Positions 1 to 46,365 of a stretch of 46,365 bases of DNA are shown here, one piece after another; the first letter of the stretch is position 1; the number at the start of each line of letters is the position of its first letter. Source of the DNA: Bacteroidaceae bacterium (GTDB lineage: Bacteria > Bacteroidota > Bacteroidia > Bacteroidales > Bacteroidaceae). The stretch spans positions 1 through 46,365 of the forward strand of contig JAFYPU010000025.1 in assembly GCA_017547385.1 (NCBI GenBank). Direction: 5' to 3'. The notes beneath the pieces are model-generated. The model worked only from the letters and a program-made list of their open reading frames with translations. It searched no databases and had not been told where the DNA came from. Made by a program: the position numbers and the translations under genes.

Positions 1-57
1 GGCCTTGCCACTTTTGTGGTAAGCCGTGCCACAAAAGTGGCAAGGCCTGCCACTTTT
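1..57. repeat. 21-bp-phased palindromic element, family A (copy A1, left-truncated)
   Basis: Word 2 (17 bp, GTGG...CCAC) starts at 16 and word 3 at 37, a spacing of 21 bp. Word 1 is cut by the window start. The last 21 bp (37-57) are identical to the right arms of the copies at 14866-14932 and 42905-42971. It lies downstream of the GH20 gene, beyond that gene's terminator. Confidence 0.8.
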
Positions 58-7336: not shown

Positions 7337-7481
7337 ATTAAGATCTTTTTAAGGCCGATAAACAAGAAAGGCGGAGGCACAGCAAATTTTCTACACCTCA
7401 CATCCAAACTCACATTTTCATTATTGTTATCGACAAACACACTGCTCATCACTTTGCGCGCCGCCGACACTATTCCGCTAC

Positions 7482-7734
7482 AAAGATAGTGAAAGGTGAG
7501 CGTAAAGTTTGAAAAAGAGTCTGCGAATTTTCTAAAACTTTACCGAGCCGCAGCCTATCTTATCAAAAGATAGTGAAAGGTGAGTGAAAAGGGAATGAAA
7601 GAACATAGTTATTTCAAATTCACTTTTCCGAGCCGCATCCTATCTTATCAAAAAATAGTGAAAGGTGAGCGTAAAGTTTGAAAATGAGTCTGCGAATTTT
7701 CTAAAACTTTACCGAGCCGCAGCCTATCTTATTA
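7482..7734. repeat. Three tandem ~84-bp intergenic repeats
   Basis: Units start at 7482, 7566 and 7651. Each begins with a GATAGTGAAAGGTGAG-like sequence and ends with CCGAGCCGCA(G/T)CCTATCTTAT. Units 1 and 3 are nearly identical; unit 2 has diverged in its middle. Each carries an internal inverted repeat (GTAAAGTTT/AAACTTTAC in units 1 and 3). The first unit contains CAAAGATA (7481-7488), which on the minus strand reads TATCTTTG, a possible -7 box for the fusion gene at 7336. No -33 box is evident. The same frame of motifs recurs at 46122-46365. Confidence 0.85.
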
Positions 7735-7752
7735 AAAAACCACACACAATGT

Positions 7753-7783
7753 TTTGTGTATTCTATGAAACTTTCTACATTTG
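7753..7783 (+). promoter_or_regulatory. Bacteroidetes-consensus promoter for the 7.8-kb RNA
   Basis: TTTG (7753-7756), a 19-nt spacer and TACATTTG (7776-7783) match the Bacteroidetes sigma consensus TTTG-N19-TAnnTTTG. The predicted transcript start is near 7788, about 420 nt ahead of the bspA-like start codon. Confidence 0.75.
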
Positions 7784-8209: not shown

Positions 8210-11200
8210 ATGAAAAAGAGACTCCTACTTATCTTTCTTCTGATTCTCGCACTGCCCTCTGGTGCATCTGCCTACGATTTTGAGGTTAATGGAATTTATT
8301 ACAATGCAAGTGCTTCTTCTGGAAAAGCAACAGTTACTTATAGAGATGAAAACTATAATAGCTATTCCGGAGAAATTACAATACCTGCCAAGGTTAATTA
8401 TAATGGCGTAAGCTACAGTGTAACGTCTATAGGAGACCATGCTTTCTTTCGTTGCAGCGGCTTAACCTCTATTGAAATACCCAATAGCGTAAAATTAATC
8501 GGAGAGTATGCTTTCGCTGGTTGTACCGGTCTAACCTCCATTGAGATCCCCAATAGCGTAACTTCAATCAAAGTTTGTACTTTCTGTTACACCGGACTGA
8601 CTTCCATTAAAATCCCTAATAGCGTAACAACAATCGGAGACGCTGCTTTCTATGAATGCGCCGACTTGACCTCCATTGAAATTCCCAACAGCGTAACATC
8701 AATCGGAAATAGTACTTTCAATGGATGCACCGGCTTGACTTCCATTGAAATCCCCAACAGCGTAACAGCAATCGAAGACTATACTTTCGTTCGTTGCACC
8801 GGACTGACCTCCATTGAAATCCCTAATAGCGTAACAGCAATCGGAGGTGCTGCTTTCGATGGATGCACCGGCTTGACTTCCATTGAAATCCCCAACAGCG
8901 TAACAGCAATCGGAGACGCTGCTTTCGTTCGTTGCACCGGACTGACCTCCATTGAAATCCCTAATAGCGTAACAGCAATCGGAAACTATACTTTCAATGG
9001 ATGCACCGGCCTGACTTCCATTGAAATCCCCAACAGCGTAACATCAATCGGAGACGATGCTTTCTCTAGTTGCACCGGCTTGACCTCCATTGAAATCCCC
9101 AACAGCGTAACATCTATCGGAGAATATGCTTTCTCTAGTTGCACCGGCTTGACTTCCATTAAAATCCCTAATAGCGTAACATCAATCGAAGACTATACTT
9201 TCTATGTATGCACCGGCTTGACTTCCATTGAAATCCCCAACAGCGTAACATCTATCGGAGAATATGCTTTCTGCAACTGCAGCGAACTGAATTCAATAGT
9301 AATCGGTAATAGCGTAACATCAATCGGAGACTGTGCTTTCTGCAACTGCAGAAACTTAACCTCCATTGAAATTCCCAATAGCGTAACTTCAATCGGGGAC
9401 TATGCTTTCGATGGTTGCAGCGGACTAAAATCTTTAATAATCAAAGACAGAACAACTAAATTGTCGTTGGGTTCGAATGGCAGATCTCCTATGTTTAATG
9501 ATTGCCCACTTGACTCTGTATATATCGGAGGAAACATCACCTATTCAACTACTTATGATGCCGGCTATTCACCGTTCTATTCAAACACCTCTCTCCGTAC
9601 AGTTGTCTTAGGCAATAGCGTAACATCAATTGGAGACTATACTTTCTATGGATGCTCCGGCCTGACTTCCATTGAAATTCCAAACAGCGTAACATCAATC
9701 GGAGACGATGCTTTTATGAATTGCAGCGAACTGAATTCAATAGTAATCGGTAATAGCGTAACATCAATCGGAGACTGTGCTTTCGACAACTGCAGCAACT
9801 TAACCTCCATTGAAATTCCCAATAGCGTAACTTCAATCGGAAAATATGCTTTCAGCTCCTGCAGTGGACTAACCTCCATTGAAATTCCCAACAGCGTAAC
9901 TTCAATCGGAAAATATGCTTTCCAGGATTGCAGCAACTTAACCTCTATTGAAATCCCTAACAGCGTAATATCAATCGAAGAGTTTACTTTCAGTCGTTGC
10001 AGCGGACTAAAATCCTTAATAATCAAAGACAGAACAACTAAATTGTCGTTGGGTTCGAATGGCAGTTCTCCTTTGTTTAATTGTTGCCCACTTGACTCTG
10101 TATATATCGGAGGAAACATCACCTATTCAACTACTTATGATGCCGGCTATTCACCGTTCTATTCAAACACCTCTCTCCGTACAGTTGTCTTAGGCAATAG
10201 CGTAACTTCAATCAGGGAAAATGCTTTCCGCTACTGCAGCAACTTAACCTCTATTGAAATACCCAATAGCGTAACTTCAATCGGGGACTATGCTTTCAAG
10301 GGCTGCAGCGGCCTAAAATCTTTAATAATCAAAGACAGAACAACTGAATTGTCGTTGGGCTCGAATGGCAGTTCTCCTTTGTTTAATGATTGCCCACTCG
10401 ACTCTGTATATATCGGAGGAAACATCACATATTCAACTACTTATGATGACGGCCGTTCACCATTCTATAAAAACACTTATCTCCGTACGGTTGCCTTAGG
10501 CAATAGCGTAACATCAATTGGAGACTATACTTTCTTTAACTGCATCGGTCTTACCTCCATTAAGATAGCAAACAGAGTAAGATCTATCGGGAACTATGCT
10601 TTCGATGGATGCTCCGGCCTAACTTCCATTGAAATCCCCAATAGCGTAACATCAATCGGAGACCATGCTTTTTGTAGTTGCAGCAACTTAACCTCTATTG
10701 AAATCCCTAACAGCGTAACTTCAATCGGAAACTGCGCTTTCCACTTATGCAGCAACTTAACCTCTATTGAAATACCCAACAGCGTAACTTCAATCGGAGA
10801 ATATACTTTCTACCAATGCAGCAGACTGAATTCAATAGTAATCGGTAATAGCGTAACAGCAATTGGGCAGTCTGCTTTCTATGGCTGCTCCGGCCTTAAT
10901 AGAGTTGTGATGGGAAATAGCGTAACTAGTATTGACAACAACGCTTTCTCAGGTTGTATTAAACTCAAAGAAATTAAAGTCTCGAATAAACTATCATCTA
11001 TTGGAGTGAAAGCTTTCTATGATTGTCGAAGTCTTACTTCGATTATTTTTCCGGATTGCCTTAAATCTATTGGAAGCAATGCTTTTGAAAAGTGCATCAG
11101 TTTGACCTCCGTAACATCTCTTAATCCGCAAGCACCTAATATGGTTAATTCATTTGACGAGCGAACTTATACTACTGCCCAACTAAATATACCTATAGGT

Positions 11201-11416
11201 GCAAAAGATAGCTATTGGTTAAACTACGATTGGTATAAATTTAATAATATAAAAGAAATAGACACTTCCGGCATCAGCCATGTGGAGACTAATAGCGGAA
11301 CAGCAAATGGCAAAGCCGTTATCTACACCTTAGATGGCCGAAGAGTGGAAACCGAAGTGCAAAATCTTCCTGCCGGAATATATATCATCAATGGAAAGAA
11401 AGTAATGGTGGAATAA
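8210..11416 (+). CDS. BspA-like leucine-rich repeat surface protein
   Basis: A 1068-aa secreted protein. Residues 1-21 form a signal peptide. From about residue 70 there are 32 units of a 23-aa LRR_5/BspA repeat (consensus [23 protein letters not shown]); unit 3 has 22 residues. Units 15, 21 and 23 carry a 56-aa longer form that includes [10 protein letters not shown] and a [11 protein letters not shown] segment. The C-terminus (YTLDGRRV...[16 protein letters not shown]) resembles a type IX secretion tail. BspA proteins of oral Bacteroidetes bind fibronectin or fibrinogen and mediate coaggregation; the ligand here is unknown. The gene is more AT-rich than its neighbours. It follows a ~420-nt leader with a terminator-like hairpin, so its expression may be attenuated. 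DNA-level identity between units suggests ongoing repeat turnover. Confidence 0.93.
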
Positions 11417-14865: not shown

Positions 14866-14932
14866 AAAAGTGGCAGGCCTTGCCACAAAAGTGGCGAGCA
14901 CTGCCAAAAAAGTGGCAAGGCCTGCCACTTTT
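14866..14932. repeat. 21-bp-phased palindromic element, family A (copy A2)
   Basis: A 67-bp element with perfect 21-bp inverted arms (14866-14886 and 14912-14932). Three GTGGC-type palindromic words start at 14870, 14891 and 14912, each exactly 21 bp apart. It lies between the divergent ppdK and uvrB promoters. Confidence 0.9.
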
Positions 14933-18118: not shown

Positions 18119-18172
18119 CTTTGCAAGCATCCACTTCCCTTTTGCAAGTATCGATGCTTCGTTTGCAAAAAT
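18119..18172. repeat. 21-bp-phased element, family D (direct words)
   Basis: TTGCAA words start at 18121, 18142 and 18163, each exactly 21 bp apart. The first two share TTTGCAAG(C/T)ATC; a GATGCTT segment (18153-18159) gives a partial inverted match. The sequence is unrelated to families A and B but has the same phasing. It lies between the BASS gene and its terminator. Confidence 0.7.
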
Positions 18173-18174
18173 CA

Positions 18175-18207
18175 AGGCACCATTCCGTTTCTCACAGAAT
18201 GGTGCCT
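18175..18207 (+). terminator. Terminator after the BASS transporter gene
   Basis: AGGCACCATTC (18175-18185) pairs perfectly with GAATGGTGCCT (18197-18207), followed by CGGTTTTA. Confidence 0.8.
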
Positions 18208-18222
18208 CGGTTTTATCAGGTT

Positions 18223-21836: not shown

Positions 21837-21905
21837 AAAAATCTGCAGTGCTTGCAGAATTTTCCGCAGTGCTCGCAGAAAATTCTGCAAGCACTGTAAA
21901 TTTTT
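21837..21905. repeat. 21-bp-phased palindromic element, family B (copy B1)
   Basis: Three 15-bp words, CTGCAGTGCTTGCAG-like, start at 21843, 21864 and 21885, exactly 21 bp apart. The outer arms (21837-21857 and 21885-21905) are inverted repeats matching at 19 of 21 positions. It lies between divergent serC and ispE. Confidence 0.85.
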
Positions 21906-22039
21906 GCTCACCCAAGGCCCGTTTTTTGAGCAAAGTGTAAGTAAGAGGCGGGAGGGTATGCAAAATATCGAAACGGCTAACACCACAATCGGGAGAAAGA
22001 CGTAAATTAGCCTCGAAAATAACCACAAATTTCTGCAAC

Positions 22040-25712: not shown

Positions 25713-26051
25713 CCTGCAAGCCCCCTTTAACCTTCAAAAAAACTTAACGAAAATATCCTAAACTTAAATCAGGCTTATAATAAAAGTTTAACAACAATTC
25801 TTATCACACTGAAAAATAATGCTTAACCATCAAAATAACAATGAAAAGTTGTCTGGTAAATTTCACAACCGATATTATGTTTATGAAAATTCGGCTTTCA
25901 ATACAAGAAAAGCTTTCTGAGAATCCCGACAACCAATCCATTCGGCATACACACGCCCTATACAAATTCAATACTTCGGGCAAAACATGAAAAAAGAAGC
26001 ATCTGTTTACCCCGGCAATCCTTGACAAACATCATGGCCCGGCATGGGCAA
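25713..26051. other. Gene-poor AT-rich gap
   Basis: Upstream of the M23 promoter. No ORF with recognisable similarity and no further promoter match. The sequence up to the family B element at 26052 holds nothing I can name. Confidence 0.55.
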
Positions 26052-26116
26052 AAATCTGCAAGGCGTTTAGAAATTTCTACAAGCACTGCAGAATTTTCTA
26101 AACGCCTTGCAGATTT
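26052..26116. repeat. 21-bp-phased palindromic element, family B (copy B2)
   Basis: Perfect 22-bp inverted arms (26052-26073 and 26095-26116). Words CTGCAAGGCGTTTAG, CTACAAGCACTGCAG and CTAAACGCCTTGCAG start at 26056, 26077 and 26098, exactly 21 bp apart. It lies 60 bp past the MarR-family gene. Confidence 0.9.
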
Positions 26117-32143: not shown

Positions 32144-32233
32144 AAACGTAAAAAACACGCTTTTTTAGAAAAACTCCACCTTTGTTTCCACCCCGACATT
32201 AGCACTATGTTATGAGTTATGGCTTGTACGAAA

Positions 32234-32294
32234 TTCTACACGGCGTTTAGAATTTCACGAAAGGCGTGCAGAAAATTCTAAACGCCTTGCAGAA
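32234..32294. repeat. 21-bp-phased palindromic element, family B (copy B3)
   Basis: Outer arms 32234-32255 and 32273-32294 are inverted repeats with two mismatches in 22. Words start at 32236, 32257 and 32278, exactly 21 bp apart. It lies 100 bp past the EEP-family gene. Confidence 0.8.
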
Positions 32295-42904: not shown

Positions 42905-42971
42905 AAAAGTGGCAGGCCTTGCCACTTTTGTGGCTGTGCTCGCCACTTTAGTGGCAAGGCCTGCCACTTTT
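42905..42971. repeat. 21-bp-phased palindromic element, family A (copy A3)
   Basis: 67 bp. The 21-bp arms are identical to those of the copy at 14866-14932, but the 25-bp centre is in the opposite orientation. Words start at 42909, 42930 and 42951. It lies between convergent panD and the TonB receptor gene. Confidence 0.9.
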
Positions 42972-45968: not shown

Positions 45969-46082
45969 GTGATTTCAAATCAAAACGGCTCATTTCCATT
46001 CGTTAATAAAACTCAAGCTCACAAAAGACGGATTCCCGAAATTGCACAAAGACCCACAAAAACCAATGTCTGCATCCACGAA

Positions 46083-46142
46083 AATCTGCAGTGCTTGCAG
46101 ATTTTTCCGCAGTGCTTGTAGAAAATTCTGCAAGGCGAGCGC
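46083..46142. repeat. 21-bp-phased palindromic element, family B (copy B4), fused to the 85-bp repeat
   Basis: Words start at 46086, 46107 and 46128, exactly 21 bp apart. The third word (CTGCAAGGCGAGCGCAG) is also the start of the first 85-bp tandem unit, so the two repeat classes overlap here. Confidence 0.8.
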
Positions 46143-46365
46143 AGAATCGGGAGAAGCCCATAGGGATTTTCACGTTATGCCGAGCCGCAGCTGAATTTGG
46201 CGAAGCAAAATTCTGCAAGGCGAGCGCAGAATCGGGAGAAGCCCACAGGGATTTTCACGTTATGCCGAGCCGCAGCTGAATTTGGCGAAGCAAAATTCTG
46301 CAAGGCGAGCGCAGAATCGGGAGAAGCCCACAGGGATTTTCACGTTATGCCGAGCCGCAGCTGAA
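46122..46365. repeat. 85-bp tandem repeats at the window edge
   Basis: Units at 46122-46206, 46207-46291 and 46292-46365 (74 bp visible, running off the window). Units 1 and 2 differ by one base (T/C at the CCCATAGGG or CCCACAGGG site). Each has AAGGCGAGCG near the start and CCGAGCCGCAGC near the end, the same frame as the units at 7482-7734. Confidence 0.92.

Follow-up and report, generated by a model that had tools for sequence, protein, structure and literature searches.

Intergenic palindrome arrays with species-specific words, a two-turn phase and near-regular chromosomal spacing in a Bacteroidaceae genus

Dispersed extragenic palindromes are a known, broad kind of sequence element. Sites scattered over the chromosome include matS, which is grouped with the Noc-binding and SlmA sites, and uptake sequences, which are single short words, evenly spread. 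For Noc, about 70 binding sites (NBSs) are described around most of the chromosome (PMC4331003); the REPs of BIMEs are described as regularly spaced, with alternating orientation (PMC2817692; PMC3116915); and the BrickBuilt MITE of Porphyromonas gingivalis is reported as 23-nt direct repeats in 1 to 22.8 units, with a leader and a tail, in 19 copies (PMC4596501). Here we analyse palindromic elements found in a 46,365-bp contig of a Bacteroidaceae bacterium (hereafter the window), which belongs to a 2.35-Mb draft genome of 34 contigs that is 86.5% complete (G000), and compare them with those of a sister species (G008) and of other species of the genus.

The initial annotation of the window described eight loci, each with three palindromic words starting exactly 21 bp, or two helix turns, apart. 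The phasing is borne out, as lag 21 gave the highest direct self-identity (0.57–0.72, lags 15–30 compared) at all eight loci (Table 1). Seven of them are indeed palindrome triplets, in which each word spans 17 bp (a 7-bp core between two 5-bp arms) and A/T spacers of 4 bp separate the words; the eighth, labelled D (18119–18172), is the single direct-repeat case and forms no palindrome triplet, and its triplet is absent from the orthologous place in G008. The further proposal of three unrelated word families has to be given up: the same middle-unit core type is present in 63 of 64 scored elements of types A, B and C, in either orientation (32:31), so these types are related; the loci at 26052 and 32234 belong to a third related type, C; and D stands by itself. 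The element at 14866–14932, for example, consists of three 17-bp words of the GTGGC-N7-GCCAC type, 21 bp apart and separated by four A/T bases, and is as a whole an inverted repeat, with an orthologue in G008 that is also A-type. Whole-element inverted repeats were scored in five of the seven triplets (14866, 21837, 26052, 32234 and 42905), with the one at 46083 below the threshold and the one at 1–57 cut short.

Table 1. Positions of the arrays and associated features in the window (a point in the strand column marks features without a strand).
Feature	Position	Strand	Remark
A-type triplet	1..57	.	Truncated at contig end; A element at the matching G008 place, C3 22230-22296
A-type triplet	14866..14932	.	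Gap between divergent ppdK-like and uvrB genes
Units of the 14866..14932 triplet	14870-14886, 14891-14907, 14912-14928		Counted from sequence
"D" array	18119..18172	+	Three direct copies of TTTGCAA, 21 bp apart, beginning at 18120, 18141 and 18162
Ordinary terminator-like hairpin	18173-18209		Adjoins the "D" array 18119..18172
B-type triplet	21837..21905	.	Gap between divergent serC and ispE genes
Side motif CAAAGTGTAAG	21931..21941	+	AAAGTGT starts 27 bases past the blastn core end
C-type triplet	26051..26116	.	G008 has the middle unit in opposite orientation
C-type triplet	32231..32294	.	
A-type triplet	42905..42971	.	
B-type triplet	46081..46142	.	Third word imperfect, runs into an 85-bp tandem repeat

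Several other repeats lie in the window. The 85-bp tandem repeat at 46122–46365, whose copies are 99% identical, starts inside a B-type element and reaches the contig end; an 84–85 bp tandem repeat with four copies at 7453–7760 has GAGCCGCAGC in common with it and contains the inverted word CTATCTT...AAGATAG; and 69-bp repeats at 8210–11416 encode a BspA-type leucine-rich repeat protein. A tRNA was the sole Rfam match in the window at gathering scores.

Beyond the window, we examined a 443-kb sample of the genome (about 19% of it: the window, contig C9 and 140 kb of contig C26), in which the distances between palindromes have peaks at 21 and 42 bp. Perfect 5-7-5 palindrome pairs number 5 at 21 bp, 4 at 22 bp and 11 at 42 bp, whereas a single Markov-1 resample has 1, 0 and 0. 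Triple palindromes at spacing 21 count 13.0 against a mean of 0.0 in three resamples, which is the excess that the initial annotation had proposed to look for. The outer units are mirror-oriented in 54 of the 64 scored elements, as tallied by hand from the scored list and with the elements centred on the best whole palindrome, a step that somewhat favours mirror orientation. The profile of B and C, built from both strands, carries a weak A-tract trace one unit past the core. An extension of the stem by the flanks was considered and rejected, as pairing of flanks within versus between elements was 0.335 versus 0.353 for B and C and 0.343 versus 0.404 for A.

A blastn search of the sample with family consensi placed 73 arrays (8 A, 25 B, 34 C and 6 with other words); scaling from the 67 A, B and C elements gives roughly 350 copies per genome; dispersal was followed by blast through the entire genome for types A and B and in stretches for the remaining types. 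The elements of G000 are dispersed extragenic palindromes in inverted pairs and in high copy. They lie between genes, as had been annotated, and in every gene arrangement: 66 placed arrays divide into 16 divergent, 12 convergent and 38 co-directional gaps, against 35, 37 and 113 among 185 gaps, with no significant bias (genes were called by a custom ORF script, which may add or miss small ones). The absence of such a bias argues against terminators and agrees with the initial view that these are not ordinary terminators. Pooled over seven species, gene context does not depart significantly from gap shares (p = 0.23), nor does it in six of them taken singly; divergent gaps are over-used in G002 (7 of 12 arrays, p = 0.037) and perhaps favoured in G005 (6 of 12, p = 0.064).

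It is conceivable that the elements act in RNA, as bidirectional terminators or RNA-stability elements. The folds predicted for four window elements are very stable inverted-repeat hairpins (−37 to −53 kcal/mol), and both strands read as A-tract, strong stem and T-tract, as this explanation would have it. However, the 16 of 66 arrays in divergent gaps stand near the gap share of 35 of 185, G002 even prefers such gaps, and ordinary terminator-like hairpins exist apart from the arrays. At one site (C26p 4647), a plain hairpin had appeared to be the stand-in of G008 for an element of G000; this was rejected when the hairpin proved to be present in both species, beside the G000-only element, which weakens the transcript reading further. 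A role in RNA, moreover, requires neither a 21/22-bp phase nor even spacing, and we regard it as very unlikely.

Comparison with the sister species, whose syntenic blocks are about 80–92% identical to those of G000, shows how single elements evolve. At 22 of the 25 G000 elements with mapped flanks, G008 has an element at the same place. The 67-bp blocks centred on the dyads align without gaps with 48–63 of 67 identities, so that the element is conserved as a block: ungapped identity is 0.75–0.89 inside it and drops to 0.47–0.61 in 10-bp bins of the flanks, the bin at the right edge excepted (0.70). Within this frame the middle unit is inverted in 7 of the 22 orthologous pairs, so direction seems irrelevant, and at some sites outer units are of type B in one species and of type C in the other. 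Positions that face each other across the mirror have both changed in 43 cases, where 17.1 would be expected; pairing is retained in 13 of these, and in 28 the two positions are unpaired in G000 as well as in G008. These two-arm changes, together with the flips, partly fit template switching at hairpins, and the elements could be passive products of replication errors, in which tandem slippage is followed by template-switch correction of imperfect palindromes. Such errors might keep up symmetry, but they leave the hundreds of copies, the 21/22-bp phase in unrelated words and the evenness unexplained, and we consider this origin improbable.

The three elements missing from G008 sit at crowded sites, ranking 5th, 1st and 2nd in crowding among 21 (P = 0.004 by summed intervals, 0.017 by nearest neighbour). 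The G008 sequence falls short of that of G000 by about 102 and 166 bp at two of these G000-only sites; at the third (C26p 10636), the counterpart C2 27874–28059 has an equal span, other sequence and an unrelated perfect hairpin. A clean, element-sized empty site was seen in G008 at none of the three.

Across the genus the words themselves are replaced. The B word occurs in bulk only in G008 (74 matches, versus 95 in G000); of the remaining relatives searched, G006 has one match and 38 have none. Nonetheless, intergenic 7-mer repeats in the genus peak at 21/22 bp, with words unrelated between species. Counts of distinct places at lag 21/lag 22, set beside the average over 19 other lags, were 66/12 versus 6.2 in G000, 33/6 versus 2.8 in G008, 14/3 versus 2.0 in G016, 12/4 versus 1.9 in G005, 5/28 versus 2.0 in G007, 12/13 versus 3.7 in G010 and 13/2 versus 0.6 in G002 (p < 0.001 in each), with weaker signals in G044 (p = 0.001), G013 (0.02) and G011 (0.04). 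In G009 and G022 the counts do not reach significance (p = 0.13 and 0.2, respectively), although arrays are visible by eye, with a single one in G022. By eye, arrays are present in 12 of the 20 same-genus genomes that were sampled, namely the ten above, G009 and G022, with words such as TTTCAC-N3-GTGAAA (G002), CTATCG-N3-CGATAG (G016) and AACCCTAGGGTT (G007). No palindrome arrays were readable in 120 kb each of G017, G004 and G015, and the genus can therefore do without them; G019, G012, G023, G018 and G021, at 5–40 kb each, offer too little for a verdict, and four genomes of other families (20 kb each) had none. Two signals were set aside: six lag-21 places in G015 (p = 2e-4) came without palindrome triplets in that text, so that this genome was scored negative, and the lag-21 signal of G023 is a simple repeat.

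Each word keeps a phase of 21 or 22 bp when neighbouring word pairs 12–70 bp apart are considered. Pairs stand at 21 bp in 24 of 24 cases in G002, 6 of 7 in G016, 10 of 11 in G005 and 4 of 4 in G011 (another word of G011 formed no pairs), and at 22 bp in 68 of 71 in G007, 9 of 9 in G013 and 1 of 2 in G009. In G010, one word has 8 of 8 pairs at 22 bp, and the ACTAGT word 5 of 7 at 21 bp. With looser patterns, which include chance matches, 21 bp accounts for 15 of 30 A and 78 of 102 B pairs in G000 and for 9 of 10 and 29 of 51 in G008. The F word stands at 22 bp in 4 of 5 pairs in G000 and 3 of 3 in G008. In the control G017, 0 of 5 pairs of the B word were in phase and the G002 word had no pairs. 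Exactly three units are present in 12 of 12 G002 arrays, and unit number is variable in G007. The claim of conserved spacing with changing sequence thus extends to the genus, where the change is far stronger than is visible in the window alone: unrelated words each keep 21 or 22 bp across species, and neither result that the initial annotation would have counted as a refutation, no excess at 21 bp or freely varying spacing, appeared. A rule that odd words take 21 bp and even words 22 bp fits most cases and is broken by the even ACTAGT word. An apparent conservation of array positions across distant species (odds ratio 2.8, p = 0.005) was likewise discarded, because control for gap length removed it (1.4, 1.0 and 0.4 with gaps of at least 50, 100 and 150 bp).

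Some individual loci merit separate mention. Two F-word arrays, at C9 127338 in G000 and C3 147369 in G008, apparently lie at different loci; both are at 22 bp, with TTATC/GATAA half-sites and spacer alike and a different centre. A record of Bacteroidaceae bacterium RGIG4240 (roe deer colon) contains the same B element and is 84.6% identical to G000 over 5.8 kb, and another titled Ruminococcus sp. RGIG4258, with a B-type element, is probably a mis-binned contig. A 37-kb stretch of G000 (C9 219900–256944) has a GC content of 47% versus 52% and two other-word arrays, with no A, B or C element; its type I restriction, Fic and HipA-like genes make it look like an acquired island.

The arrays are also spread along the chromosome more evenly than random intergenic gaps in all seven species tested, a feature that is new relative to the initial annotation. 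Coefficients of variation (CV) of the intervals were 0.51 in G000 (n = 71, mean interval 6.4 kb), 0.63 in G008 (35, 7.2 kb), 0.54 in G002 (12, 13.0 kb), 0.50 in G016 (17, 8.2 kb), 0.39 in G007 (22, 9.7 kb), 0.43 in G005 (12, 11.6 kb) and 0.31 in G010 (5 arrays, 14.6 kb), whereas null sets of gaps of at least 60 bp, of at least 150 bp, or weighted by length had mean CVs of 0.74–1.01. Because G000 and G008 have sites in common, these amount to six independent lineages. Such evenness was reached in 0 of 2000 draws under all three nulls in G000 and G007 and is weakest in G002 (p about 0.05); it is weak as well in G010, with its 5 arrays. The G000 set takes in six other-word arrays, and two weak partial elements, C9 61315 (38.9 bits) and C9 178914 (46.7 bits), were left out before testing. 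Intervals below 3 kb are rare in G000 (6 of 68, 21.2 expected), G008 (1 of 33, 9.1 expected) and G007 (0 of 20, 3.7 expected), and not significantly so in G016 (2 of 16, 2.9 expected), G002, G005 and G010. Four other-word arrays within A/B/C territory also keep a greater distance from A, B and C elements than the remaining gaps (p = 0.02).

Directionless symmetry, a two-turn phase independent of sequence, block conservation and even spacing in every kind of gene context would together be best met by cooperative dimers that serve the chromosome and not a gene. Our main reading, to which we assign a probability of about 40%, is that the elements are symmetric docking platforms for a candidate architectural protein and are held apart by selection. 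A predicted dimeric DNA-binding protein would dock on each element, its dimers sitting on adjacent palindromes two helix turns apart on the same face of the DNA and binding cooperatively. Platforms several kilobases apart would then probably contribute to chromosome organisation, as anchors, bridges or domain boundaries, and protein and word would change together by lineage, such that layout and spacing persist as the sequence turns over. We infer the protein, its cooperative binding, its chromosomal role and the selection on spacing from these patterns of sequence. Species-specific, dispersed and evenly spaced elements could also label DNA as "self" in uptake or recombination; yet uptake words are single and short, whereas the elements keep their symmetry, phasing and triplet form, and this use of them seems to us very improbable.

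One feature breaks the symmetry. The motif AAAGTGT, read outward, occurs within 90 bp in 22 of 130 flanks of 65 G000 elements, 19 of them at exactly 27 bases, compared with 29 of 1098 random intergenic 90-bp windows; within 30 bases it accompanies 26 of 96 elements of G000 and G008 pooled. Conservation of this flank ends sharply after CAAAGTGTMAGC, and in 23 flanks with the motif at offset 27 the next gene points away in 14 and toward in 9. The motif renders the extended element asymmetric and, being one-sided and sharp-ended, is the strongest hint of mobile ancestry.

The main rival to docking platforms is a selfish, REPIN- or MITE-like repeat, in which an enzyme with species-specific recognition copies a hairpin of three phased palindromes, and evenness follows from target immunity or from purging of close copies; the initial annotation had raised the related idea that an amplification mechanism may copy the architecture. 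Besides the side motif, the high copy number, intergenic placement, species specificity and inverted-repeat hairpins, all as for REPINs (PMC3116915), speak for a selfish repeat, as do the several word families per genome and the reduced length of G008 at two of the three places where it lacks an element. Against it, G008 has a clean, element-sized empty site at none of these places, turnover is low (22 of 25 elements in common with G008), and the sole Y1_Tnp transposase of G000 has no element in its 3.3-kb locus; 6 of the 12 species with arrays, whose genomes are incomplete, gave no Y1 match. As these searches found no linked Y1 gene, RAYT/IS200 was rejected as the mover. Nor does it explain even spacing; REPIN doublets are reported to be randomly distributed (PMC3116915), and presence/absence differences fall at crowded sites, opposite to immunity, a result on 3 elements that disfavours target immunity as the source of evenness. 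On balance we hold a selfish repeat to be possible, if somewhat unlikely.

The docking platforms, for their part, lack a cognate protein among the candidates considered, as neither RAYT nor Noc-type proteins fitted. No second distinct strong ParB_N gene (Noc-type) was present in 14 genomes searched, 12 of which had one match or none (G002 and G017 none) and one of which, G009, had a second weak match; ParB/Noc is thus not distinctive among them and was rejected. Two ParB matches of equal score in G000 (C10:37282 and C31:14778) are accompanied by element matches that also score alike (C31:24916 and C10:27364), and a duplicated stretch in the draft probably explains the pair. Also counted against platforms are the absence of readable arrays from 120 kb each of G017, G004 and G015, the lack of position conservation between distant species, the weak evenness in G002 and G010, the short intervals that are not significantly rare in four species, the non-uniform gene context and the one-sided motif. 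An extended form, which we put forward as a doubtful possibility, is a chromosome-wide ruler: platforms of helically phased palindromes, maintained across the genus at near-regular distances (6–15 kb on average, depending on species), would be read by a predicted architectural protein whose specificity and hundreds of sites are replaced lineage by lineage.

If the ruler were true, form and spacing would be inherited and sequence would not; if spacing is under selection, intervals of several kilobases are marked in the sequence, and a role as domain boundaries becomes testable by deletion. Related species with different words are natural replicates in which sequence is separable from geometry. 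If the elements are instead selfish, they would be a new class of extragenic repeat, with a mover and a scarcity of close copies to be explained. Under either reading, it has to be explained how a word can be exchanged at many sites while its geometry is kept. Among titles and abstract openings, a scope that leaves aside all bioRxiv preprints and most subscription journals, we found no report of a two-turn phase with genus-wide word turnover and even kilobase spacing.

Compared with known systems, the elements differ from intrinsic terminators in also lying between divergent starts (16 of 66 in G000). They resemble Noc-binding and SlmA sites as palindromes dispersed over the chromosome (PMC4331003), where one protein is described as binding and here binding is predicted; unlike Noc sites, they form two-turn triplets in an estimated several hundred copies with species-specific words, and no extra strong ParB-family gene accompanies them. 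With REPINs and BIMEs and their RAYT they have in common high copy number, intergenic position, palindromes, species specificity and inverted pairing (PMC2817692; PMC3116915), yet they are found without a linked RAYT, and CGTC occurs in 0 of 65 and GTAG in 27 of 65 elements (counted anywhere in the element, not at the palindrome foot). They differ from REPINs in their fixed 21/22-bp phase and in even spacing, as opposed to the random distribution reported for REPIN doublets (PMC3116915). BrickBuilt, finally, as described (PMC4596501), is similar in being an intergenic Bacteroidales repeat with a tandem unit of similar length, whereas the elements here are made of mostly palindromic units, at 21 or 22 bp and in triplets.
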